Source: a virus
Reading direction: 5' to 3' (one strand)
DNA length: 20,562 nt
Virus record (IMG/VR): IMGVR_UViG_3300008108_004511
Location: 1 to 20,562 of that record
Below are positions 2,204 to 19,326 of this stretch, in pieces (position 1 is the stretch's first letter; each line of letters opens with the position of its first letter). The translations under genes were made by a program, and so were the position numbers. The notes beneath the pieces were generated by a model. It did no database searches. It was given only the letters and a program-made list of their open reading frames with translations, and was not told the DNA's origin.

Positions 2204-3028
2204 ATGAAAAAACTACTCTTGCTTCCAATACTTCTTGCAACATCTGGTTGCATAGGCGGAATGCATCCTCATCTGAATCAGTCATATCTTCTACGAGAAG
2301 ATGCTGAGGTAGAAAGATTTGCAAATCCTAAGTTGTTTAAAAATCTACCAGAGCTCGATGGACAAGTGATTCCTATCGCTATCTACTCGTTCACTGATAG
2401 AACAGGACAACGTAAACCTTCTGCTACTCAAGCCAGCTTCTCGACGGCGGTAACTCAAGGCGCCGATGCTTATGTTATCAAAACATTGGCAGATACTGGC
2501 GATGGCAAGTGGTTTCGTCCAGTCGAACGCGTAGGTATCGATTCTCTTATTAAAGAACGTCAGCTTGTAAGGCAGATGAGAGAACAGCAACTCGGAGAAG
2601 GTGCAGAACCACTTCCTCCTCTCATGGTTGCAGGTATCATTCTTGAAGGCGGTATTATTGACTATAGTTCAAATACCAAGACTGGTGGTAACGGTGCACG
2701 ATTCCTTGGAATTGGTCCTTATCAGCAGTACGCAGAAGATCAAGTTACTATTAGTATGCGACTCGTCTCAGTACAGACAGGTGAAGTCCTCACCTCTGTC
2801 ACTGTTGAGAAGAATCTGCTCTCTACATCCGAGGGAGTGACAGCATTTAAATTCTTTGACATGGCAACAAAAGCTTTTGAATTTGATGGACAACAAACAT
2901 CGAATGAAGCTGGTAGTTATGCGATCCGTTCAGCCATAGAAACGGCCGTTGTGGAATTGATCAAGGATGGTGAACGTAAAGGTCTATGGAGATTTAAGCA
3001 AAAGGAAACAACAAATGAAGTTAAGTAA
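2204..3028 (+). CDS. csgG: CsgG-like outer-membrane curli secretion channel (lipoprotein)
   Basis: This 274-aa protein is a full-length match to CsgG (E. coli, 277 aa). Residues 1-15 are a lipoprotein signal ending LLATSG|C16, so the mature protein should be acylated at Cys16 and sent to the outer membrane. Recognisable CsgG segments include YSFTDRTGQRKPS, ASFSTAVTQGADAYV, KWFRPVERVGIDSLIKERQ, PLMVAGIILEGGIIDYSSN, TKTGGNGARFLGIG, TGEVLTSVTVEKNLLS and the C-terminal SAIETAVVELIKDG. In E. coli nine subunits form the ungated pore for curlin export. In the constriction loop the phage protein keeps Phe79 of F-S-T-A-V but has Ser/Ala where E. coli has Tyr and Asn, and one extra residue. AAGGAAA precedes the ATG. 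The last 14 bases overlap the start of the curlin-like gene. Confidence 0.93.
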   Translation: MKKLLLLPILLATSGCIGGMHPHLNQSYLLREDAEVERFANPKLFKNLPELDGQVIPIAIYSFTDRTGQRKPSATQASFSTAVTQGADAYVIKTLADTGDGKWFRPVERVGIDSLIKERQLVRQMREQQLGEGAEPLPPLMVAGIILEGGIIDYSSNTKTGGNGARFLGIGPYQQYAEDQVTISMRLVSVQTGEVLTSVTVEKNLLSTSEGVTAFKFFDMATKAFEFDGQQTSNEAGSYAIRSAIETAVVELIKDGERKGLWRFKQKETTNEVK

Positions 3029-3788
3029 AGCTTTATTCGTTGGCGCTGCTCTTCTTTATGGAACATCTGCGGTTGCACAAACAGTGCTACCAACAGCCCC
3101 AACACCACCAACAATCGTAACTACCTCTCCGAATGAAGTGACTGCAGCCGCAGTTGCAACCACCAACAAGGTGTATATTGATCAAGAAGGCGGAAACGTT
3201 GATGTTAACATTGTTCAGACAGGCACTGCCAACATTATTGGCGATTCTGGTGATCCTATCTACCTACGCGGCGATAATCAAAGTGTCATCGCTGTACAAA
3301 CAGGTAACGGAAACCAACTCTACATGGGAATCGTATCCGCAACTGGAGGCACAGGAGTTGCCACAGCTACAATACGCCAAATCGGCGACCTAAATACTGC
3401 AGACATTCGTTGCGGTACTTTAGTATCTGACGCGATCTGTAATCAGTTCGATATGAACGCTCGCTTTACTGGCGATTCAAACTCTCTTGTGTTCCATGGT
3501 TCGGGTGCAAATATCCGTAACTCGATGGATATCACTGGTGATAACAACACGTTCAATATCGACGCGCTGTCACCAAATGCTACGCAGACTGTTCTTGTCA
3601 CAGGTGACTACAATGACTTCGACGTGACACAAACAGGTCTCGGCGGAACATTTGGACATTCGCTCTATGTGAATCTTACAGGTACACTGAACACCATTAC
3701 AACCCAGCAATACGGAGCTTCGGAAACCGTAATCAATCTTAAGTCGACGGGTTCAAATGGTACGTTTAATATCAAGACTGGCCATTAA
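3015..3788 (+). CDS. Secreted curlin-like repeat protein (putative amyloid subunit)
   Basis: This 257-aa protein has a signal peptide at residues 1-21 (LLYGTSAVA|Q), a Pro/Thr-rich spacer (24-40) and then degenerate curlin-type repeats. Each repeat has the G-x-x-N-x-(5)-Q-x-G rhythm: DVNIVQTGTAN, QSVIAVQTGNGNQ, TIRQIGDLNTADI, ITGDNNTFNI, VTGDYNDFDVTQTG and LTGTLNTITTQQ. Curlin repeats in CsgA and CsgB stack into a cross-beta solenoid. Position directly after csgG makes it the natural export substrate. The start at ATG 3015 is supported by AAAGGA at 3001-3006. Two cysteines (C133, C142) sit between repeats and could form a disulfide. The 3' end overlaps the FecR gene by 32 bases. It could act as either a major subunit or a nucleator; these cannot be told apart here. 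Confidence 0.75.
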   Translation: MKLSKALFVGAALLYGTSAVAQTVLPTAPTPPTIVTTSPNEVTAAAVATTNKVYIDQEGGNVDVNIVQTGTANIIGDSGDPIYLRGDNQSVIAVQTGNGNQLYMGIVSATGGTGVATATIRQIGDLNTADIRCGTLVSDAICNQFDMNARFTGDSNSLVFHGSGANIRNSMDITGDNNTFNIDALSPNATQTVLVTGDYNDFDVTQTGLGGTFGHSLYVNLTGTLNTITTQQYGASETVINLKSTGSNGTFNIKTGH

Positions 3789-4893
3789 TCTCTTACTTCT
3801 GATATCGGTTCCCGCCTTTGCAGGCGTGGGATCGATATCAGAGTTTCAGGGCGGAGGTTCCGTGAAGCGTGGTGCAAAGGTCGCACCTGCTGCTAAAGGC
3901 TCGAGTATCGAAAAGAACGATACCGTCTCTACCAATTCTCAGGGTAGATTTAAGATTCGATTCGTCGATGCCACCACAGTTAACATCACACAAAATTCAA
4001 GGTTAGTCATCGATGATTTCGTCTATGATGGAAACAATAAGAGCAAAGGCAAGCTTGGTCTTAAGCTGGCTTTGGGAACTGCGAGATATACTTCTGGTGG
4101 CATTGCTCATGGCAACGCTCGCGGTGTTGGTATACGGACACCCACCGCAACGATTGCCGTAAGAGGCACAGACTTTGTCATGTCAGTCGATGAGGCCGGC
4201 AGATCGACTGTTGTCCTCGTTCCAGAATGTTATAACGATAAAGATATTACAAAGATCAACTTCGAATGCCCGTCTGGAGCTATCGATGTTATCACTGCTG
4301 CAGGTATCGTGACTCTGACTCAGCCATTCCAAGCAACGATGGTCGAGAATTCTTACGCTCCTCCTGCTCCTCCGGTCGTAATTAACCCTGCAATGAAGGG
4401 TATGGACAACAATATTCAGATCTCTCCTCTCGAAACAGACGATGGACAATCACTCATCAACGCTGCTCGCGAATCACTCAAGAAATTTGTCAATCCTGCA
4501 AAAGCCGCATCTGATGACAACCAAGATCCAAATACCGGTGGAGACGGCGTAGAAGAAGTCGCAGTTGCTACTCTTCGTTTGCCTACTCAAGATGAACTTC
4601 AAAATATCTATGCAGAGTATAATTCTGGTGCAAGACCGACAGAAACTATCTACACAAACGTATCTCCTACTTTCAAGAAACAACTGCAAGTCGGATGGGT
4701 ATACTCGAGAATCTCAGAGGATAAGAATCAATCTGTGATCGTATGGTTACCAAAAGACACAGAAATTCAACTCGTTTCTGTACAGAATGGAATCGTCGAC
4801 GCCTACAATTTTATGGATGATAAATGGACTACGACAGGTACAGGTAGACCACAAGGAAATATCACCGTAATACAAGAGTCAGGTGCAAGATGA
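3757..4893 (+). CDS. Secreted FecR-domain protein
   Basis: This 378-aa protein has a signal peptide at residues 1-22 (LLLLISVPAFA|G) followed by a FecR domain (about 24-150). The domain shows the family's succession of strands: KGSSIEKNDTVSTNSQGRF, VNITQNSRLVIDDF, LKLALGTARY, VGIRTPTATIAVRGTDF and VDEAGRSTVVLV. The rest (about 160-378) has no domain I recognise and includes Pro-rich and acidic stretches. Classical FecR relays signals from TonB-dependent receptors to FecI sigma factors, but many secreted FecR proteins lie beside CHASE2 cyclases or surface proteins, as here. No FecI or TonB receptor is visible. The ATG at 3757 lies 32 bases inside the curlin gene with no clear ribosome site, so it probably depends on coupling. 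The stop overlaps the next start (ATGA). Confidence 0.82.
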   Translation: MVRLISRLAINLLLLISVPAFAGVGSISEFQGGGSVKRGAKVAPAAKGSSIEKNDTVSTNSQGRFKIRFVDATTVNITQNSRLVIDDFVYDGNNKSKGKLGLKLALGTARYTSGGIAHGNARGVGIRTPTATIAVRGTDFVMSVDEAGRSTVVLVPECYNDKDITKINFECPSGAIDVITAAGIVTLTQPFQATMVENSYAPPAPPVVINPAMKGMDNNIQISPLETDDGQSLINAARESLKKFVNPAKAASDDNQDPNTGGDGVEEVAVATLRLPTQDELQNIYAEYNSGARPTETIYTNVSPTFKKQLQVGWVYSRISEDKNQSVIVWLPKDTEIQLVSVQNGIVDAYNFMDDKWTTTGTGRPQGNITVIQESGAR

Positions 4894-6350
4894 TCAGATG
4901 GATCTTAACACTACTACTGTTAACGTTTAGCGTACAGTTAAATGCGCAGACGCCTTCGAACTATGGTTTCGAAGATGGAACTTATGCAGGTTGGACAGTT
5001 TCTAACGGATCCACCACACTTCGAACGAGTTGGTCAGATTCTGGTCAGGGAGTTCAAGTGACAACTGGCATGCAAAACTATTGCCCAGGTGGAGGTAAGT
5101 GCTGGACAATTACACCTTATGGTTCTTATATGATATCGGTCCAAGCAGGAGGAAGTTCTCCTCAATTCAATACAGCCATGACTACGCTTGGTCTAAGCTC
5201 AACCGATATTACAACCATTCGAAATACGATCTATTCGAATGGGTCAATGTATCCTACGAATGCTTCGTCTGTGAGTAGAACCGTATTCCTACAAGCCGGA
5301 ATTACATACACGTTTGGCTGGCAATATCTGTCGACCGACTATGTTCCTTACAACGACGGCTCGATGATTACGTTGACGAATGGACCAGGAATTCCAACTT
5401 TAAACGGTCAGACACAGAATTATGCTCTGCTCGGATTTACCAATCAAGGAACTGGTAACTATTCAGTAGGATCTTATGGTGCCACTGGTTGGCAACTCGC
5501 CGTGTTTACTGTACCGACTGATGGCAACTATACGCTCGGCTTCTCGTCATTCAATCTTGGTGACACAGCTCTTTCTCCTATCTTGTTCATCGACCAGTTG
5601 CAAGGAACAACAACTCTGAATGGAACCACGTTTAATCCTATAGCTCCAAACGAAGGATCGTCTGCACCGACCACACCTCCACCTCCACCTCCAGCGCCTG
5701 CATATCCTGCTGTATCGATTACGACTAATCAGACTATTAAGCTTGGCCAGACGAATGCTATTACAAGTAACTCGATTTACATTCAAAATATCGGCGATAA
5801 TAATACCGTCAACGTCGAACAGTTCTCAAGGTTTAATGCCATCAGAGGTGTTAACGGTTCTCAAGACATGTTAATTAATGGTAGCAACAACAATATTACT
5901 ATTAATCAAGGCACTGCTACTACCGTTCTCGGAAACAATCTTGCCGAAGTGTCTGTCACTGGTAATAATAACACCGTATCTCTTACACAACAAAATAATG
6001 GTAAGTATACAGAGCTGGTAATGAATGGAACGGGAAATCAACTGACTGCTCAGCAGAAAGATGCCGGTGGAAAGTATGCGTTCTTCAATATCTTAGGTAA
6101 CTCGAATGTAATTACTACTTTGCAACAAGGCACAGGTAATCACTTCTTAGATATCAGCGCACCTTATGGCGGATTGAATGCAACCATCACTCAATCTGGT
6201 GCTTCACAAAAGCTGTTTCAACTGATAATAAATAATCCAGGAATTGGAGTCACTGTATCGCAAACTGCTGCGAGTGCTACTGACTCCGCTTCAATGACAA
6301 TAACATGCGCGACAGGACCTTGCAGTGGGTACAGCTACACAAAAAATTAA
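4890..6350 (+). CDS. Secreted adhesin-like protein: beta-sandwich plus curlin-like repeats
   Basis: This 486-aa protein has a signal peptide at residues 1-19 (TFSVQLNA|Q). Residues 22-245 look like a jelly-roll beta-sandwich of the kind used in carbohydrate binding or surface proteins: the opening NYGFEDGTYAGWTVSNGS is a typical N-terminal strand pair, with FTVPTDGNYTLGF and LFIDQLQ near its end. A proline-rich linker (about 258-272, PPPPPP) leads to repeats at about 290-455 with the G-x-x-N-x-(5)-Q pattern: YIQNIGDNNTVNVEQF, LINGSNNNITINQG, VSVTGNNNTVSLTQQ, LVMNGTGNQLTAQQ, ILGNSNVITTLQQG and LNATITQSGA. The repeats could co-polymerise with the curlin-like protein and display the sandwich domain. 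Two C-terminal cysteines (C473, C478) end the protein. AGGTG at 4881-4885 precedes the ATG. The last 26 bases overlap the cyclase gene. Confidence 0.75.
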   Translation: MIRWILTLLLLTFSVQLNAQTPSNYGFEDGTYAGWTVSNGSTTLRTSWSDSGQGVQVTTGMQNYCPGGGKCWTITPYGSYMISVQAGGSSPQFNTAMTTLGLSSTDITTIRNTIYSNGSMYPTNASSVSRTVFLQAGITYTFGWQYLSTDYVPYNDGSMITLTNGPGIPTLNGQTQNYALLGFTNQGTGNYSVGSYGATGWQLAVFTVPTDGNYTLGFSSFNLGDTALSPILFIDQLQGTTTLNGTTFNPIAPNEGSSAPTTPPPPPPAPAYPAVSITTNQTIKLGQTNAITSNSIYIQNIGDNNTVNVEQFSRFNAIRGVNGSQDMLINGSNNNITINQGTATTVLGNNLAEVSVTGNNNTVSLTQQNNGKYTELVMNGTGNQLTAQQKDAGGKYAFFNILGNSNVITTLQQGTGNHFLDISAPYGGLNATITQSGASQKLFQLIINNPGIGVTVSQTAASATDSASMTITCATGPCSGYSYTKN

Positions 6351-8388
6351 ATCGATTCTTCTGAGCCCATGGCTGGCGATCTTTACGTTCGCTCTTCTTA
6401 TGACAGTAAAGATCTCGGATCCATATCTCGTCGAAGCCACTCGCCTCAAGTTTTACGACTACCTTATGATTTCTGAACCAAAGAAGTCAGAACAGATCGT
6501 TTTGATAAATATTGGCGAGAAAGCGATTGAGAAATATGGCCAATATCCGTTCCCGCGTAAAGTCTACGCTGACATTCATTCTGAGGTCTATGGCCGAGGG
6601 GCTGCTCTTGTTGGTAGCACTATACTTTACCCTGAGCGTGATCGGTTGGGGACTGATCGAGATCTTGCGGATTCGCTAAAGCAATATCCTGTCGTTCTTA
6701 GCCAGACGGTAAGCGACTCTTGTTCACGGGCAAGCGCGACAATTCGGAAGACAGGCGTTGCCGTAATCGGCGATGGAGAAGCAACTGAATTTCTTCCTCA
6801 ATACCCATGCGTTCTAAGTAATGTCTCAGTTCTTCAAGAAGCCGCAGCCGGTGTTGGGATAACGTCAACCCTACCCGAGACTGATGGGGTTGTAAGGCGA
6901 GTTCCTCTTCTATCTGAGTCATCAGGCGAATACTATCCCGCATTTGCTCTAGAGATGCTGCGTGTAGCTGCAGGAGACTCTTCGTATCAAGCCAAGATAA
7001 ATCAGACTGGGGTTGAAGCATTACGAATTCCTTCTTTTGAAACAATTAAAACAGACGAGTATGGAAGAACCTTCATCAATCCGAACTACCAATTTCAATC
7101 ATACGAAATTGGTGCGGGTCCTTTGCCCGATCTGGCAGGTAAAATCGCGATTGTTGGAGTGACTGCAGCTGGGCTAAGTAACCCTGTAGCGACTCCTTCA
7201 GGTGCCCAACATCCCCATCAACTCCAAGCGAGTATTCTTGAGACTCTGATAAATGGGGACTCTGTGTCGATTCCGAATTGGATTCCGCTTGTAGATCTTG
7301 GCGGGTTTCTTCTTCTTTTCCTGGCATTGGTAGTTATCTCTCGATTTAAGTTCTCGTATGTATATATCGCAGCATTGATTGCTGCCTATGTGTATTTACC
7401 GGTGTACTTATTCGGCACTTATGGTATAATGATGGATATCAGCTTCAACGTATTAGGCGCGCTGCTGATCTACATTCATATCTATACAGTGAAATTTATC
7501 TCAGAGTATTTACAGAAGCAACAGATTAAGAAACAGTTCGGCACATATCTGAGCCCAGATCTGGTAGCAAGACTACAAAGACAACCAGAACTCTTGAAGC
7601 TTGGCGGAGAATCACGTGATCTTTCGATCATGTTTACAGACGTTCGCGGATTTACTACAATCTCTGAACACTACGGAGATGATGTCCAAGGCTTGACTTC
7701 TATTATGAATCGTTACATGACAGTCATGACACGGGCGATTCTCGAAAACAACGGCACACTTGATAAGTATATTGGTGATGCGCAAATGGCATTCTGGAAT
7801 GCTCCGCTCGATAACAATAAGCATGCATTAGATGCTGTTCGAACTGCCTTTCAAATGTTAAAAGATTTGGAGATTTTCAATGAAGAGATTAAAGGAGAAG
7901 GCATTCCAGCTTTCGGTATGGGTCTTGGTATTAACACTGCCACTGTGGTTGTGGGTAATATGGGCTCTGATCAGCGTTTCGATTATACTTGTCTGGGCGA
8001 CGGCGTTAATTTGGCTGCTCGTCTGGAAGGTCAAACCAAGCCTTATGGAGTTAAACTCATCGTCGGGCCACAAACGGCCGAATTGGTGGGGTCTGTATAC
8101 CAAATAGTCGAACTCGATCTGATTGCTGTCAAAGGTAAGACAGAACCAGCAAGAATCTACACCGTTCTCGATGTTTCTGACGGCGCTGGAGAATTACTAC
8201 ATAAGAAGTTCCTCGATCTCTATCGTCAAGGCAAATGGGATGAAGCTCTGAATCTTATAAAAGATCTCAAGCGATGCTGGAACGAAGAGCTCAATGCATA
8301 CTATGCTATGATGGAACAAAGAATATATGATTTGAAGACTGATGAACCACTCAAGTGGGACGGAGTTTATAGAGCTACCAGTAAGTGA
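6325..8388 (+). CDS. CHASE2-domain transmembrane class III adenylate cyclase
   Basis: This 687-aa protein has one N-terminal membrane helix (about 11-28), a periplasmic CHASE2 sensor (about 30-310), three further helices (about 321-339, 343-361, 366-388), a linker (KQQIKKQFGTYLSPDLVARL) and a class III cyclase domain (about 430-615). Catalytic residues are complete: metal-binding D439 (IMFTDVRGFT) and D485 (KYIGDAQMAFW), the adenine-selecting pair K481 and T555, and transition-state N562 and R566 (GDGVNLAARLE). Lys/Thr at those positions favours ATP, so cAMP is the expected product. A 70-aa helical tail follows. The GTG start at 6325 has AGGA at 6314-6317 and overlaps the adhesin gene. Gly GGG and Pro CCC codons are unusually frequent in the CHASE2 part. 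CHASE2 ligands are unknown; the adjacent secreted FecR and curlin-like proteins are candidate partners. Confidence 0.92.
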   Translation: MGTATQKIKSILLSPWLAIFTFALLMTVKISDPYLVEATRLKFYDYLMISEPKKSEQIVLINIGEKAIEKYGQYPFPRKVYADIHSEVYGRGAALVGSTILYPERDRLGTDRDLADSLKQYPVVLSQTVSDSCSRASATIRKTGVAVIGDGEATEFLPQYPCVLSNVSVLQEAAAGVGITSTLPETDGVVRRVPLLSESSGEYYPAFALEMLRVAAGDSSYQAKINQTGVEALRIPSFETIKTDEYGRTFINPNYQFQSYEIGAGPLPDLAGKIAIVGVTAAGLSNPVATPSGAQHPHQLQASILETLINGDSVSIPNWIPLVDLGGFLLLFLALVVISRFKFSYVYIAALIAAYVYLPVYLFGTYGIMMDISFNVLGALLIYIHIYTVKFISEYLQKQQIKKQFGTYLSPDLVARLQRQPELLKLGGESRDLSIMFTDVRGFTTISEHYGDDVQGLTSIMNRYMTVMTRAILENNGTLDKYIGDAQMAFWNAPLDNNKHALDAVRTAFQMLKDLEIFNEEIKGEGIPAFGMGLGINTATVVVGNMGSDQRFDYTCLGDGVNLAARLEGQTKPYGVKLIVGPQTAELVGSVYQIVELDLIAVKGKTEPARIYTVLDVSDGAGELLHKKFLDLYRQGKWDEALNLIKDLKRCWNEELNAYYAMMEQRIYDLKTDEPLKWDGVYRATSK

Positions 8389-11526: not shown

Positions 11527-12039
11527 ATGGTAAAAATAGTAGATAATTTTTTATCAGAAGAACTTTACCAAAACTGTTATGACTCTGCGGCAAAGATTTA
11601 TGGAGCTGGAGATAATGTGTTTTTTACTAATGCAAATTGGCCGTATGAAATTGTAAAAGATAGCTATCCAGTTTTATGTCATAACATCTATAGAGATAGT
11701 TCTTTATTTGAAAATATCTACAATAGTACAATGAACTATGGATATCGACCGGTAGAAGGAGGATCTATCTTATTCTACTTTTGGACCGCACATAGCTATA
11801 TTCCCTGGCATACTGACACAGATAGACAACAGGCAGCTATCACTGTATATTTAAATCCTGAATGGGACCGCGATTATGGCGGATACTTTATGTACGAGGA
11901 TCGTGCAGAGATCAAAGCCATCTTACCTAAAAGAAATCGTGCAGTGATCAACGACCTAGGTCACGAACACTGCACGACTCCTGTGCATCCTAACGGTAAA
12001 CTGAGAGTTACTCTTCAGATATTCTGTAACAAGATTTAG
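11527..12039 (+). CDS. Fe(II)/2-oxoglutarate oxygenase (prolyl hydroxylase-like)
   Basis: This 170-aa protein has iron ligands H-T-D (YIPWHTDTDRQ), a central AAITVYLNPEWDRDYGGYF segment, and a distal His in INDLGHEHCTTPVHP followed by KLRVTLQIF, whose Arg would hold 2-oxoglutarate. This is the prolyl-4-hydroxylase-like layout common in T4-like phages; the substrate is unknown. I chose ATG 11527 because GGGA lies 8 bases upstream; ATG 11518 would add three residues. Leu is often TTA here, unlike the neighbouring genes, which suggests separate acquisition. Its stop overlaps the stop of the convergent endolysin gene, and the endolysin transcript probably runs antisense through the whole gene. 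Confidence 0.82.
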   Translation: MVKIVDNFLSEELYQNCYDSAAKIYGAGDNVFFTNANWPYEIVKDSYPVLCHNIYRDSSLFENIYNSTMNYGYRPVEGGSILFYFWTAHSYIPWHTDTDRQQAAITVYLNPEWDRDYGGYFMYEDRAEIKAILPKRNRAVINDLGHEHCTTPVHPNGKLRVTLQIFCNKI

Positions 12040-13217
12040 CCCCAGTTGGCATACTGCTTCGTCTTCTTCAGACGATCGTCAAGACCGTGTGTACCGCCAT
12101 TCACTCGCTTCGAGATTTGAGTGATCACAGCATCGGTTACACCCTTATCTGCAATTGCAAGCAATCCATTCTTACGGAAGAACCATAATGCAGACTCAAA
12201 AGCCAACTCGCCAACCACAAGATCAGGATTCTTCAAGACGTCAGGACGTTTTACGTCAGCGGCAAAAGCTGTATAGTTGTCTTTCCCGGTCAGTTGGATC
12301 GGGCCTCGACCACGCCACTTCCAACCATCTCCAGAGGCTTCTGAACCGTTCCCCATCCGATTAGCGTAAACCTTATTAGCGATCTTTTCTGGCTTACGTG
12401 CATAACCTGCAGTCGAAGCGATCGTAGGAAAATACTTCTTGAAGATGCCGTTAAGTCCCTTATCTGAGTAGTTCAGGTTTTCAGAGAATACCTTAAAGCC
12501 ACCTGACTCGTGAGCACACTGACCAAAGAAGTGCGCAGCTTGGTTGTTAGTCAGTTTGAAATAATCTCTGGCTGCCTTATAAGTGCCAGGTCCCCATTTA
12601 CCGTCGGCAGTAATGCCACATTTGGTTTGGAGTGCAGCTAATGGACCAAGTCCTGCAGCTACTGGTTTTGCTTGTGTGACAGAGTCAGTGATCTGTGAGT
12701 TGATTGCCTTGATGGTAGGTGCACCAGCTGCCTTTGTTGTCGACGGATCAAAGTCAGCAACAGTAGTATACACTGTACCACCTGCCTTCGACTTCGTGGC
12801 GATCATGCGCATCTTACGATTGCCTCCACCCTTCTTAATCGAAGCGTGAACCCAACCAGAATTCTTATCGCCCTTTGTGTAGAACTCGAGAATCACTTGG
12901 TCGAATTCAAGGTTGTCACCGATCCAGTCAGCAACTACTTTGTTGTCAATACCAGGAATTTCGAAGTCGATTGCTTGGCCGTTGACGTGTTGTGATGTCT
13001 TCGATCCGCCAACTGCCTTGTTCACCAGCGGTGCACGATAAGACGAGTTGATCTGAACAGGTTTGCCAAAGTGATTACGTACTGGTTCGAGAATCTTCTC
13101 GCAGCAGTAACGCATGTTCTCGATATGTTCTGGAGTTGGGGTATTGCTGAGTCCAAGTCTTTTTGCAGTAGGAGAAACAATCATCTCTGCCAAAGAAAAA
13201 TGTTCAGTTAGTTTCAT
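12036..13217 (-). CDS. Two-domain endolysin: M15 peptidase plus GH19 glycosidase
   Basis: This 393-aa protein has an N-terminal M15/VanY-like peptidase (about 1-130) with zinc motif SQHVNGQAIDF (H77, D84) and GWVH (H124), expected to cut peptidoglycan cross-bridges. A linker (about 150-190) leads to a GH19 chitinase/lysozyme domain (about 192-393) with the catalytic Glu in FGQCAHESGGF (E237), a second candidate Glu at E293, and the substrate-cleft signature RGRGPIQLTGKDNY (about 302-315). It would cut both the peptide and the glycan part of the cell wall. No signal peptide or membrane anchor is present, so a holin is needed. It is the only minus-strand gene in the window. The ATG at 13217 follows AAAGGCG on the minus strand. 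It diverges from the polymerase gene across 75 bases. Confidence 0.87.
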   Translation of the reverse strand: MKLTEHFSLAEMIVSPTAKRLGLSNTPTPEHIENMRYCCEKILEPVRNHFGKPVQINSSYRAPLVNKAVGGSKTSQHVNGQAIDFEIPGIDNKVVADWIGDNLEFDQVILEFYTKGDKNSGWVHASIKKGGGNRKMRMIATKSKAGGTVYTTVADFDPSTTKAAGAPTIKAINSQITDSVTQAKPVAAGLGPLAALQTKCGITADGKWGPGTYKAARDYFKLTNNQAAHFFGQCAHESGGFKVFSENLNYSDKGLNGIFKKYFPTIASTAGYARKPEKIANKVYANRMGNGSEASGDGWKWRGRGPIQLTGKDNYTAFAADVKRPDVLKNPDLVVGELAFESALWFFRKNGLLAIADKGVTDAVITQISKRVNGGTHGLDDRLKKTKQYANWG

Positions 13218-15761: not shown

Positions 15762-16832
15762 ATGTCCGACTTACTTAACAAACTACGCAAGAATACAACG
15801 ATCAAAGACTCAGATATCCTGTCGGATTCAAAGTTCTTTAATGCCAAGGATATGATCGCAACGACCATTCCTGCCATCAACATTGCCCTCAGCGGTAAGA
15901 TCAATGGCGGTTTCGTTCCTGGTCTCACCATCTGGGCAGGTCCATCAAAGCACTTTAAAACCTCGTTCAGCCTTCTCATGGCGAAGGCATACATGGACAA
16001 GTATCAAGACGCAGTCATGCTTTTCTATGACTCAGAATTTGGTACTCCACAATCTTACTTCGACTCATTCGGTATCGACACATCTCGAGTTCTCCATACT
16101 CCCATCACAGATGTCGAACAGTTGAAGTTTGATATTATGCATCAGTTCGAAGAGATCAAGCGCGGTGATCATGTCATTGTCGTGATCGATTCGGTCGGTA
16201 ACCTCGCTTCGAAGAAAGAAGTCGAAGATGCACTCAAGCAAAACTCTGCCGCAGATATGACTCGAGCAAAGCAGCTGAAGTCTCTGTTCCGCATGGTTAC
16301 GCCCCACCTCAATCTGAAGGATATTCCTCTGATCGTGGTCAATCACACATACCAGACTCAAGAAATGTACTCGAAGGCAGTCGTTTCTGGTGGTACTGGT
16401 ATCTACTACTCAGCCGATAACATCTTCATTCTCGGCCGTCAGCAAGAAAAAGACGGCAAGGATGTGACTGGCTACAACTTCATCATCAATGTCGAAAAGT
16501 CTCGGTTCGTCAAAGAAAAGAGCAAGATTCCTATCGAAGTATCATGGGACGAAGGCATCAGCAAATGGTCTGGTCTACTTGACATGGCTCTCGAGTCTGG
16601 TCATGTAATCAAGCCAAAGGTTGGTTGGTTCCAGAAGGTCGATATGGAAACTGGAGAGATTGGTGAAAAGTCGTATCGCATGAACGATACGTACAGCTTC
16701 AGCTTCTGGCATCCTATTCTACAGTGTCCTAAGTTCAATGAATTCATTGAAAAGAAGTATGCTGCATCGAATGGTGCTATTATGCAAGAAGAAGATGAGG
16801 TAGCAGCAGTCTATGAGATGGAGGATGAATGA
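15762..16832 (+). CDS. uvsX: UvsX RecA-like recombinase
   Basis: This 356-aa ATP-dependent strand-exchange protein drives recombination-dependent replication and repair in T4-like phages. Walker A is GPSKHFKTS (residues 60-68), matching the T4 UvsX form G-P-S-K-x-F-K. Walker B is VIVVIDSVGNL (about 138-148). Downstream, LIVVNHTYQTQEMYSKAVVSGG matches the loop region that contacts DNA. The acidic C-terminus (EEDEVAAVYEMEDE) is typical. AAGGAG is 6 bases before the ATG. The stop overlaps the helicase start (ATGA), so expression is coupled. Confidence 0.95.
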   Translation: MSDLLNKLRKNTTIKDSDILSDSKFFNAKDMIATTIPAINIALSGKINGGFVPGLTIWAGPSKHFKTSFSLLMAKAYMDKYQDAVMLFYDSEFGTPQSYFDSFGIDTSRVLHTPITDVEQLKFDIMHQFEEIKRGDHVIVVIDSVGNLASKKEVEDALKQNSAADMTRAKQLKSLFRMVTPHLNLKDIPLIVVNHTYQTQEMYSKAVVSGGTGIYYSADNIFILGRQQEKDGKDVTGYNFIINVEKSRFVKEKSKIPIEVSWDEGISKWSGLLDMALESGHVIKPKVGWFQKVDMETGEIGEKSYRMNDTYSFSFWHPILQCPKFNEFIEKKYAASNGAIMQEEDEVAAVYEMEDE

Positions 16833-18244
16833 GAATTGAACACATTATATTTGGAAATCTTATTGAAAACGAGGAGTATGGTCGCAAGGTCATTCCATTC
16901 CTCAAAGAAGAGTACTTCACAGATACTGTAGATCGTAAGATCTTCTCTGTCATTCATGAATATGTGGGAAAGTATAACAACTTTCCTACAAAATCTGCTG
17001 TTGAAATTGATATCAATGAAGTAAGTGGATTGTCTGACGACCAGTTCAAGCTGGCGAAGGAAGTGATTTCTGGCCTTGACAAGTCAGAAGATCGTGATGT
17101 GGCATGGCTCGTAGATAACACCGAGAAATTCTGTAAAGATAAGGCACTATATAATGCTCTGATGAAATCTATTCAATTGGTAGATGATAGCAAGAAGGAT
17201 AGCATCTCAGTCGGTGCTATTCCTCAGATCTTGACTGATGCACTCGGCGTTTCCTTTGATAGTCATATCGGTCATGACTTTCTGAATGATGCAGCAGAAC
17301 GTTATGAGTTCTATCATCGTAAGGAAGTTCGTATCGGTTTCGACCTTGACTTCTTTAACAAGATTACTCAAGGCGGTCTACCTCGTAAGACTCTGAACAT
17401 TGCTCTTGCTGGTACTGGTGTCGGTAAGTCATTGTTCATGTGTCACAATGCGGCTCAAAACTTGATGTCAGGTCAGAATGTCTTGTATATCACTTTGGAA
17501 ATGGCAGAAGAAAGAATCGCCGAGCGTATCGATGCCAATCTTCTTGGTGTGACACTCGATGATCTCAAAGATCTACCACAAGCCATCTATTACAAGTTGG
17601 TAGGGAAAGTCAAGGAACGAGCCAAAGGCAAGCTCATTGTGAAGGAGTATCCAACAGCATGCGCAGGATCCGCAAACTTTCGACATCTCTTGAACGAGTT
17701 GAAGATCAAGAAGAACTTTATCCCCGACATTATCTACATCGATTATCTGAACATCTGTGCATCTTCGAGGATAAAGCCGGGGTCGAACGTGAACTCGTAC
17801 ACCTACATCAAGGCGATCGCCGAAGAACTTCGCGGCCTCGCCGTCGAGTTCAACGTACCCATAGTTTCGGCTACTCAGACTAATCGTTCTGGTTTCAGCA
17901 ACTCTGATGTTGGTCTTGAAGATACTTCTGAATCTTTCGGTCTACCAGCAACGGCCGACTTTATGTTTGCCTTGATTACGAGTGAAGAACTTCGTCAGCT
18001 TAATCAGATCATGGTAAAGCAGTTGAAGAATCGTTACGGCGATCCTTCGGTGCATAAACGCTTTGTGATTGGTGTTGACTACTCGAAGATGAGACTGTAC
18101 AACGTAGAGATGTCAGCACAAGAAGATGTCCTGCAAGACGATGACGTTCCTATCTTTGATAAGTCTGATTCTGGCAGTCGTCTACTCGATGAGTCAAAAC
18201 CTGTAAACAAGTTCAATCGTAACAAATTTCAAGGATTTAATTGA
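16829..18244 (+). CDS. 41: Replicative DNA helicase, T4 gp41/DnaB type
   Basis: This 471-aa hexameric 5'-3' helicase moves on the lagging strand with the primase. The N-terminal helical domain is followed by a RecA-like core (about 165-430) with Walker A AGTGVGKS (194-201), the YITLEMAEERIAERID segment carrying the catalytic Glu, Walker B DIIYIDYLNI (about 300-309), and VPIVSATQTNRSGF with the following DTSESFGLPATADF stretch characteristic of gp41. GGAGG at 16820-16824 overlaps the uvsX end. The stop overlaps the start of the following small gene (TGATG type). Confidence 0.95.
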   Translation: MRIEHIIFGNLIENEEYGRKVIPFLKEEYFTDTVDRKIFSVIHEYVGKYNNFPTKSAVEIDINEVSGLSDDQFKLAKEVISGLDKSEDRDVAWLVDNTEKFCKDKALYNALMKSIQLVDDSKKDSISVGAIPQILTDALGVSFDSHIGHDFLNDAAERYEFYHRKEVRIGFDLDFFNKITQGGLPRKTLNIALAGTGVGKSLFMCHNAAQNLMSGQNVLYITLEMAEERIAERIDANLLGVTLDDLKDLPQAIYYKLVGKVKERAKGKLIVKEYPTACAGSANFRHLLNELKIKKNFIPDIIYIDYLNICASSRIKPGSNVNSYTYIKAIAEELRGLAVEFNVPIVSATQTNRSGFSNSDVGLEDTSESFGLPATADFMFALITSEELRQLNQIMVKQLKNRYGDPSVHKRFVIGVDYSKMRLYNVEMSAQEDVLQDDDVPIFDKSDSGSRLLDESKPVNKFNRNKFQGFN

Positions 18245-18450
18245 TGGTAGAATTCACAACGAATGTCTCCGGAAAAATACTTGAACTGCCAGAAAAGTCT
18301 GAGTGGAAAGTGTGGTTAATGGGGGATTACGGTAAGTCCCAGCATGGCGCTATCGTTTATCAACCCAATAAGGGAATGGAACCGAACTGGTTTCACCGTA
18401 AGATGCAAGAACTTTGTTTTGGATTTCAGTGGAGAAAGATTGATGGTTAA
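18244..18450 (+). CDS. Small hypothetical protein, 68 aa
   Basis: The product runs MVEFTTNVSGKILELPEKSE to FGFQWRKIDG and is rich in Trp and Lys, with no membrane helix. ATG 18244 overlaps the helicase stop and has AAGGA 8 bases upstream, so it is part of the replication operon. I do not recognise it. T4 carries small genes such as 40 near 41, but there is no visible similarity. Confidence 0.6.
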   Translation: MVEFTTNVSGKILELPEKSEWKVWLMGDYGKSQHGAIVYQPNKGMEPNWFHRKMQELCFGFQWRKIDG

Positions 18451-18685
18451 CTATAAGATCGTGAATGACAAGCAACTGATTGATATCGGTGCAGGCTATG
18501 TTGAAGTAGGCGGAGACATCCTTGAAACCAAAACAAACCAGCTTGTTTTGAAGGGATTAGGAATGCGTAAGGCCAAGGAGATGGTTCGACATCTTAACTT
18601 CGGCGGAGGATTCGACGGCTTCACACCAGAATTTTTTTTAGCCGAACGTGAAAAAACTTTGGAATTGACTGAAGAACTTGTATAA
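18443..18685 (+). CDS. Small hypothetical protein, 80 aa
   Basis: The product starts MVNYKIVNDKQLIDIGAGYV. I chose ATG 18443 because GGAG lies 8 bases upstream and it overlaps the previous stop by 8 bases in the usual style of this operon; an earlier in-frame ATG at 18344 would lie wholly inside the previous gene. The GMRKAKEMVRHLNFGGGFDG segment suggests a small alpha/beta fold, but the family is not recognised. Its stop overlaps the late promoter at 18681-18688. Confidence 0.6.
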   Translation: MVNYKIVNDKQLIDIGAGYVEVGGDILETKTNQLVLKGLGMRKAKEMVRHLNFGGGFDGFTPEFFLAEREKTLELTEELV

Positions 18686-18688
18686 ATA
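18681..18688 (+). promoter_or_regulatory. T4-type late promoter TATAAATA, start of an RNA unit
   Basis: This exact late octamer overlaps the stop codon of the 80-aa gene. With a start about six bases downstream and a strong terminator ending at 18832, it defines a discrete late transcript of about 140 bases that contains no convincing gene. Confidence 0.65.
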
Positions 18689-18693
18689 GATGT

Positions 18694-18832
18694 ACACTAT
18701 GTGGTGCGTGGATATGCAGTTTATCTGTATAAGAGGCAAGTGTCTTAATTGACGACTGGAATAGGCAGGGTCACAGGTGGGGTTCCTCCTGCTACACGCA
18801 TGATGGGCGGCTTTCGGGTCGCCCATTTTTTT
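18694..18832 (+). ncRNA. Candidate structured late non-coding RNA
   Basis: About 140 bases lie between the exact late promoter and an intrinsic terminator. By eye it folds as a multi-branched RNA. P1 pairs 18704-18710 with 18795-18801 (7 bp, one G-U). P2 pairs 18713-18719 with 18725-18731 around TTTAT. P3 pairs 18733-18737 with 18742-18746. A GC-rich hairpin lies within 18765-18792 (GCAGG with CCTGC, or CAGGTGG with CCTCCTG). The layout is cloverleaf-like, but the D-loop GG, TTCRA loop and CCA end of a tRNA are missing. Only short Cys-containing peptides of about 20 codons are open. It could be a small regulatory RNA, a highly diverged tRNA-like molecule or a leader. The family is unknown. 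Confidence 0.45.
18803..18832 (+). terminator. Intrinsic terminator
   Basis: The stem 18803-18811/18818-18826 (ATGGGCGGC with GGTCGCCCAT-type pairing, one G-U) has a TTTCGG loop and is followed directly by seven T residues (18826-18832). It ends the late RNA unit and the upstream replication operon, and separates them from the promoter that starts two bases later. Confidence 0.9.
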
Positions 18833-18833
18833 G

Positions 18834-18862
18834 TTTACAATATATTTAAAACGCGGTATAAT
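18834..18862 (+). promoter_or_regulatory. Sigma70-type promoter (TTTACA-17-TATAAT)
   Basis: The -35 box TTTACA (18834-18839), a 17-base spacer and a perfect -10 box TATAAT (18857-18862) form the best host-type promoter in the window. It lies right after a strong terminator and about 25 bases upstream of the next gene. Early expression by unmodified host RNA polymerase is expected. Confidence 0.8.
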
Positions 18863-19201: not shown

Positions 19202-19236
19202 ACATGTACAATTAATCGAAATCAGTGTAAGCTGAT

Positions 19237-19311
19237 AATGGCTGAAGCGATCTCGAGTGATCTTTCGTAAATTGCTAGTGACTGCAGGGTGGATCGGTCG
19301 CTTCAGCCATT
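19237..19311 (+). repeat. Long-stem hairpin (14-bp inverted repeat) before RNA ligase gene
   Basis: 19237-19250 (AATGGCTGAAGCGA) and 19298-19311 (TCGCTTCAGCCATT) are perfect inverted repeats enclosing 47 bases, which themselves contain GATC/GATC and CTCGAG partial pairing. CTTTTAGGA follows, so the right arm ends 4 bases before the ribosome site (AGGA) of the RNA ligase gene. It may be a weak terminator for the upstream gene, a structured RNA, or a 5' element controlling ligase translation. A weak promoter-like pair, TTAATC-16-GATAAT, lies at 19212-19239. The 125-base gap contains no gene. Confidence 0.65.
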
Positions 19312-19326
19312 CTTTTAGGATTTATT

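Follow-up and report, generated by a model that had tools for sequence, protein, structure and literature searches.

A putative stand-alone late non-coding RNA gene beside gp41 in an uncultured clade of T4-like phages

Described phage RNAs and the locus in this study

Phage T4 encodes the stable RNAs C and D, which are structured, have no known function and lie within the early tRNA cluster, and phage phi29 has the pRNA, a small RNA with a junction fold and a role in packaging. In T4, late promoters are the class that serves virion genes. The phage RNAs GOLLD and ROOL, whose function is also unknown, were defined by covariation; GOLLD, which exceeds 800 nt in many members, rises during phage lysis, and both RNAs are often found near tRNA islands (PMC12286853). 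The manA and wcaG RNAs are structured, occur in T4-like phages and in marine metagenomes, and were described as leaders of metabolic genes (PMC2864571), and the Methylophilales phage Melnitz carries a glutamine riboswitch together with a permuted tmRNA (PMC9004378).

In this study, we analysed a stretch of 20,562 nt (20.6 kb) from the IMG/VR virus record IMGVR_UViG_3300008108_004511, here called the window, which carries T4-type genes for the gp43 polymerase, UvsX, the gp41 helicase and RNA ligase 1, and in which a small folded RNA is predicted next to gp41. Like the T4 stable RNAs C and D, it is a phage-encoded structured RNA of a T4-type phage, with unknown function; unlike them, it has a late promoter of its own and adjoins gp41, and our covariance model R2 matched nothing in the whole T4 genome, so that it is not one of these two RNAs. 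It resembles GOLLD and ROOL in being a phage RNA defined by covariation whose function is unknown, but its core measures ~100 nt, it lies beside gp41, and it has no Rfam match. The manA and wcaG RNAs are likewise structured and from T4-like phages; however, their Rfam models were not matched here, and the new RNA has a terminator of its own at its 3' end and is not followed by any constant gene. The phi29 pRNA is also small and junction-folded, but phi29 belongs to an unrelated phage group and the Rfam match is again lacking. Melnitz offers another case of a functional RNA in a T4-like phage of aquatic bacteria, and a csgG gene is found in both phages, whereas the RNAs differ and the new one is absent from Melnitz.

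The csgG gene lies in a region of the window (2204-8388) that holds CsgG, curlin-repeat, FecR-domain and CHASE2-adenylate/guanylate cyclase genes in a T4-like contig. CsgG is known from pelagimyophages and Melnitz, both without csgA and csgB (PMC9004378), and its company here, a curlin-repeat protein and a CHASE2-cyclase, appears unusual. The window also encodes a radical SAM protein with a SPASM domain (108-1121) and, on the minus strand and opposite to the replication block, a likely two-domain lysin combining peptidase M15 and glycoside hydrolase family 19 (12036-13217). A second structured element was observed at 19232-19323, in the leader of the RNA ligase gene, with a long stem that varies yet stays paired, a T-rich tail and a conserved inner CGARTGRNMTTTCGTAWATKGCT. 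Its pattern occurred in 59 stretches of viral contigs (40 distinct), some before rnlA and others elsewhere; it had no match in Rfam, and it may be a special type of terminator or a further stand-alone phage RNA.

Promoter, terminator and inheritance of the RNA

A preliminary description of this DNA had proposed a self-contained late RNA unit with an exact late promoter and a strong terminator ending in seven T residues, and had implied that the downstream gene is promoted separately. As shown in Table 1, the promoter and the terminator were both confirmed, and the next gene 3' of the RNA was found to have its own sigma70-like promoter (TTTACA-17-TATAAT, 18834-18862, 11 of 12 matches). Because the TATA box of T4 late promoters lies about one helical turn 5' of the start (PMC2988020), the RNA is inferred to begin near 18694. 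The stop codon of the small ORF upstream falls within the late promoter, this ORF being a neighbour that lies outside the RNA. The unit from 18694 to 18833 folded at -53 kcal/mol, which surpassed all 200 of 200 dinucleotide shuffles (z = -3.8), and the folding energy of the core without the terminator gave z = -2.5.

Table 1. Coordinates of the predicted RNA unit, its structural parts and its neighbours in the window
Feature	Position	Strand	Basis or remark
gp41 DnaB-like helicase gene	16829..18244	+	phrog_19, E 1.7e-123; constant neighbour of the RNA
Small ORF with GGGFDGFTPEF motif	18443..18685	+	phrog_29065, function unknown; directly 5' of the RNA
T4-type late promoter TATAAATA	18681..18688	+	exact match
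Predicted primary transcript, ~138 nt	18694..18832	+	inferred from where the promoter and the T-run lie, without transcript data
Conserved RNA core, four-way junction P1-P4	18704..18802	+	covariance models R1 and R2; 90.5 bits, E 3.5e-20
P1 (7 bp), 5' strand	18704..18710	+	pairs with 18795-18801; compensatory double changes
P2 hairpin	18713..18731	+	18713-18719 with 18725-18731; double changes at 7/7 pairs
J2/3 junction strand AGAGGCAAG	18732..18740	+	GGC invariant, next A in 59/60
P3 hairpin	18741..18755	+	18741-18744 with 18751-18753 and 18755; double changes at 4/4 pairs
J3/4 junction strand GGAATA	18758..18763	+	GGAA in 60/60, in sequences found without it in the pattern
P4 and P4c	18764..18793	+	P4 18764-18769 with 18788-18793, P4c 18775-18777 with 18785-18787; covariation
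Apical heptaloop UGGGGUU capping P4	18778..18784	+	60/60
Intrinsic terminator (11-bp stem, 4-nt loop, seven T)	18802..18832	+	stem 18802-18827, T-run 18826-18832

Related loci were gathered by RNA ligase and gp41 protein searches. In near relatives the RNA was 89-98% identical, compared with 70-83% for the flanking sequence, and the distant loci shared CAGGTGGGGTTCCTCC, preceded by a TATAAATA-like box. A gapped pattern scan of viral contigs returned at least 120 stretches, and the family was found in roughly 200 uncultured viral contigs (an approximate count, with some loci coming from one contig). When the same pattern was run against 257 Gb of bacterial and archaeal genomes, 41 matches were obtained versus ~60 expected by chance (our own estimate), and all of them scored ≤22 bits with the model; because these matches are near chance and score no higher, the RNA is taken to be viral.

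The signals flanking the RNA were then compared among relatives. Of 67 members, 56 carried an exact TATAAATA no more than 60 nt upstream (1.05 expected), mainly 8-15 nt before P1, and the remaining 11 had an xATAAATA or xCTAAATA box. Moreover, in a second set, TAAATA was found within 45 nt upstream in 77 of 77 members (6.6 expected). The late consensus of phage Aeh1 has a/gC in place of TA, and the ACTAAATA and GCTAAATA boxes of the relatives equal that consensus (PMC2988020). If a T4-type late promoter is defined as the 8-bp TATAAATA or its Aeh1 variant, placed roughly one helical turn 5' of the start, the predicted promoter meets this definition, with the start site unmapped. A terminator-like hairpin followed by a T-run lay 3' of the RNA in 59 of 65 relatives. 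The requirement for a stand-alone RNA gene, namely a promoter and a terminator of its own that are conserved along with the RNA, is met at the level of sequence, and the self-contained unit of the preliminary description is supported to the same extent; no transcript data are available.

Wherever gp41 was present in the retrieved DNA, the RNA lay just beyond its 3' end, usually less than 1 kb and at most ~2 kb away. It was co-directional with gp41 at most loci and convergent in 16 of 65 (L073, L082, L084, L107, L108 and L114 among them), and it occurred once per contig in ten contigs of 40-152 kb. In a gp41 tree (FastTree; of 87 rows, 26 carry the RNA and 40 lack it), the distribution of the RNA followed one part of the tree and required 3 label changes versus 20.7 in shuffles, which shows clade-wise inheritance; near-copies in the tree inflate this clustering. 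Two loci, L052 and L055, lie inside the RNA clade yet lack the RNA. In L052, TATAAATA comes after the small ORF with the next gene directly behind it, and the locus looks like an empty site.

The small protein with the GGGFDGxTPxF motif (phrog_29065) was seen near the RNA at 76 of 120 RNA-bearing gp41 loci versus 2 of 41 loci without the RNA, in a count for which the choice of loci was biased. The possibility that this upstream protein is a strict partner of the RNA was rejected because it persists in L052 and L055, where the RNA is missing. At another locus, L140, the gp41 reading frame seems to open with intein-like sequence ahead of the helicase part (bases 1-1313).

With regard to cultured phages, a search by DNA similarity to named phages gave no relative, only terminator-like or short chance fragments being matched, and the named T4-like phages (T4, HTVC008M, Melnitz, DLP6, S-SM2, P-SSM2, Bellamy and others) yielded no match above 14 bits. 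Among the matches listed, the closest named phage by gp41 reached ~63% at best. Given that no named phage exceeded this value and that the T4-like phages tested lack the RNA, the RNA appears to belong to a clade for which no cultured member was found; in the absence of a cultured carrier, host and phenotype are lacking.

Covariation-supported fold and invariant letters

The fold was read from an alignment of 27 members (A1, made with MAFFT), in which 90.1% of cells were paired and compensatory changes fell in 19 of 29 pairs; none of 500 shuffles equalled this result. RNAalifold, run without guidance, recovered P3, P4 and P4c. Model R1, built from A1, recovered more members with differing P4c, and P4c variants among members comprised AGG/CCU, CGG/CCG, CCG/CGG, CAG/CUG and UGG/CCA. 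When 60 members were aligned, compensatory double changes were found in 28 of 29 base pairs, and the covariation score was 0.629, compared with 0.209 in shuffled alignments and at most 0.147 when the partners were slid. In these 60 members, P1 showed double changes at all 7 of its pairs with 94% of cells paired (its outermost pair is G-U in the window sequence), and P4 had every cell paired (100%), as many as 4 pair types occurring at a single position.

A second scan, employing another pattern and model R2, provided 78 more matches, 66 of them distinct. In these 66 members, which as loci stood outside model building, the covariation score was 0.659 versus 0.203 in shuffles; a few of the second-set loci, however, were other stretches of first-set contigs. 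Mutual information was also calculated for all column pairs of the model-fitted 60-member alignment. The top 17 places were all taken by pairs of the proposed fold, and the scan showed no additional covarying helix that would indicate a pseudoknot. None of these covariation statistics is tree-aware.

The minimum-energy fold of the single window RNA is -34.8 kcal/mol, compared with -25.7 kcal/mol for the fold supported by covariation. The latter is preferred because the relatives' covariation supports it, and of the four inner helices of the minimum-energy fold the relatives confirm P2 only. Thus, the cloverleaf-like fold of the preliminary description was retained in part: its 7-bp closing stem (P1) and P2 stand, and its other inner helices were replaced by P3, P4 and P4c. 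The expected covariation among homologues was observed, and was repeated in the 66 distinct members. Compensatory base changes across homologues, the mark by which we judged a structured non-coding RNA, are present, and the element qualifies as one by this measure.

Several unpaired letters were also kept (Table 1). The GGC of J2/3 was invariant in the 66 additional distinct sequences as well, whose search pattern did not contain GGC, and the UGGGGUU loop was retained in 16 members that were recovered by the model and missed by the sequence pattern. The search patterns themselves fix letters (GGCAAG and AGGTGGGGTTCCT in the first scan, GGAAYAG and GGTGGGGTTCC in the second); the invariance of the junction strands was read from the set whose pattern omitted them, and that of the loop from the 16 model-only members. 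Part of the sequence invariance stems from the search patterns, and the covariation is independent of them. The first five letters of the loop are those of the 23S P-loop UGGGGCG, which is possibly chance and is offered as a lead only. A UGGGGU strand can form four-stranded G structures, so self-assembly of the RNA is possible. Mimicry of rRNA was considered separately, as some members recall 16S (GGAATTGACGGGG), and was put down to chance, given that the best unfiltered score of the model on rRNA was 9.2 bits and that P4 varies freely.

Other identities were examined as well. A tRNA or tmRNA would show acceptor, D, anticodon and T arms with a T-loop; ARAGORN, applied to the window and to the RNA locus of 30 relatives, detected neither, in agreement with the earlier remark that tRNA hallmarks are absent. 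A scan of the window against Rfam 15 gave no match at the gathering cut-off; the best permissive scores at the element were 16.9 bits for PhrS (cut-off 37) and 17.7 bits for freshwater-2 (cut-off 49.9), and one relative scored 24.3 bits with BjrC68, under the cut-off of 39. A protein-coding ORF was rejected, since the lengths (91-121 nt) run across all three phases and most members have stops in every frame. No published description of the RNA was found in the literature searched, which largely excluded subscription papers; the closest phage RNAs on record there were GOLLD, ROOL, manA, wcaG and the Melnitz riboswitch. As judged from these comparisons, the RNA matches no known RNA family and appears to be a member of a previously undescribed one.

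Possible roles of the RNA

In our view, the element is likely to be a stand-alone late gene for a non-coding RNA in an uncultured T4-like clade; its product would most probably work in trans, as a folded molecule with an unknown partner. According to this proposal, the phage late RNA polymerase (host core, a gp55-like sigma and the sliding clamp) would start at TATAAATA, and transcription, which is inferred, would end at the intrinsic terminator to give an RNA of ~130-140 nt. The RNA would fold into the four-way junction and present the invariant strands GGCA and GGAA and the loop UGGGGUU; it may then act in trans in the late phase by holding a protein, ribosomal or RNA partner. Both the action in trans and the recognition through loop and junction are inferences, whereas the fold, the conservation of promoter and terminator, the single copy, the position by gp41 and the clade-wise inheritance rest on the sequences themselves.

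Ranked second is the use of the loop as a seed, whereby UGGGGUU of a small RNA would base-pair with phage or host transcripts at AACCCCA-like sites, turning late translation up or down. This mode is conceivable, given a seven-nt loop kept letter for letter atop a freely changing stem and a 3' intrinsic terminator such as many bacterial small RNAs have, but we regard it as doubtful: the invariant junction strands GGCA and GGAA suggest a compact fold and not a lone seed, no target was identified, and G-rich seeds are unusual.

The order of promoter, folded domain, terminator and gene is also that of a transcriptional riboswitch, and a cis-acting riboswitch or attenuator, with the junction as aptamer and the terminator as the switch for the next gene, could be imagined for the co-directional members, most of which have a gene starting 60-110 nt after P1. 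A cis role in these members is not formally excluded. However, a transcriptional riboswitch would call for a co-oriented gene downstream in all members, and this was not met: a quarter of one sampled set is convergent to gp41 without a co-oriented gene close behind the terminator, which makes a riboswitch unlikely and implies that the conserved thing is the RNA itself. Moreover, a second TATAAATA follows right after the terminator in 13 of 49 co-directional members (0.45 expected), the downstream genes belong to mutually unrelated families, and in the window the next gene has the sigma70-like promoter noted above.

A virion- or packaging-associated RNA or an RNA scaffold, comparable to phi29 pRNA or to the GOLLD and ROOL cages, is still harder to sustain; the late promoter and the strong folding would suit it, and GOLLD and ROOL are examples of phage RNAs able to assemble unaided (PMC12286853), but the RNA matches none in Rfam, and virion or oligomer data are lacking. 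Finally, a DNA-level or transcription-boundary element that insulates the replication operon and makes a useless RNA would explain the constant position where the gp43-uvsX-gp41 block ends, but is very improbable because such an element has no need of an invariant loop or of compensatory changes at 28 pairs and is contradicted by the covariation.

The trans-acting folded RNA remains our preferred reading. Whether it is the first dedicated gene for a late non-coding RNA to be described in the T4 superfamily, one that is single-copy, old and vertically kept, with a new four-way-junction fold, an invariant UGGGGUU loop and a late function as yet unknown (it might, for instance, form the core of a phage ribonucleoprotein or touch the ribosome or tRNA ends), we consider evenly balanced. 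The novelty lies at the level of the RNA family, in that the fold, the promoter class and the locus match no described family that was found; as a broad kind, phage RNAs without an assigned function are already known. Few viruses have been studied as well as the T4-like phages, yet the RNA is missing from those model members that were tested, and an entire uncultured clade keeps it as firmly as its replication genes. With the consensus, the family can readily be found in other data and its function put to the test. Such strong structural selection on a late-phase RNA would point to a step in the phage cycle that RNA handles and that has so far gone unseen.
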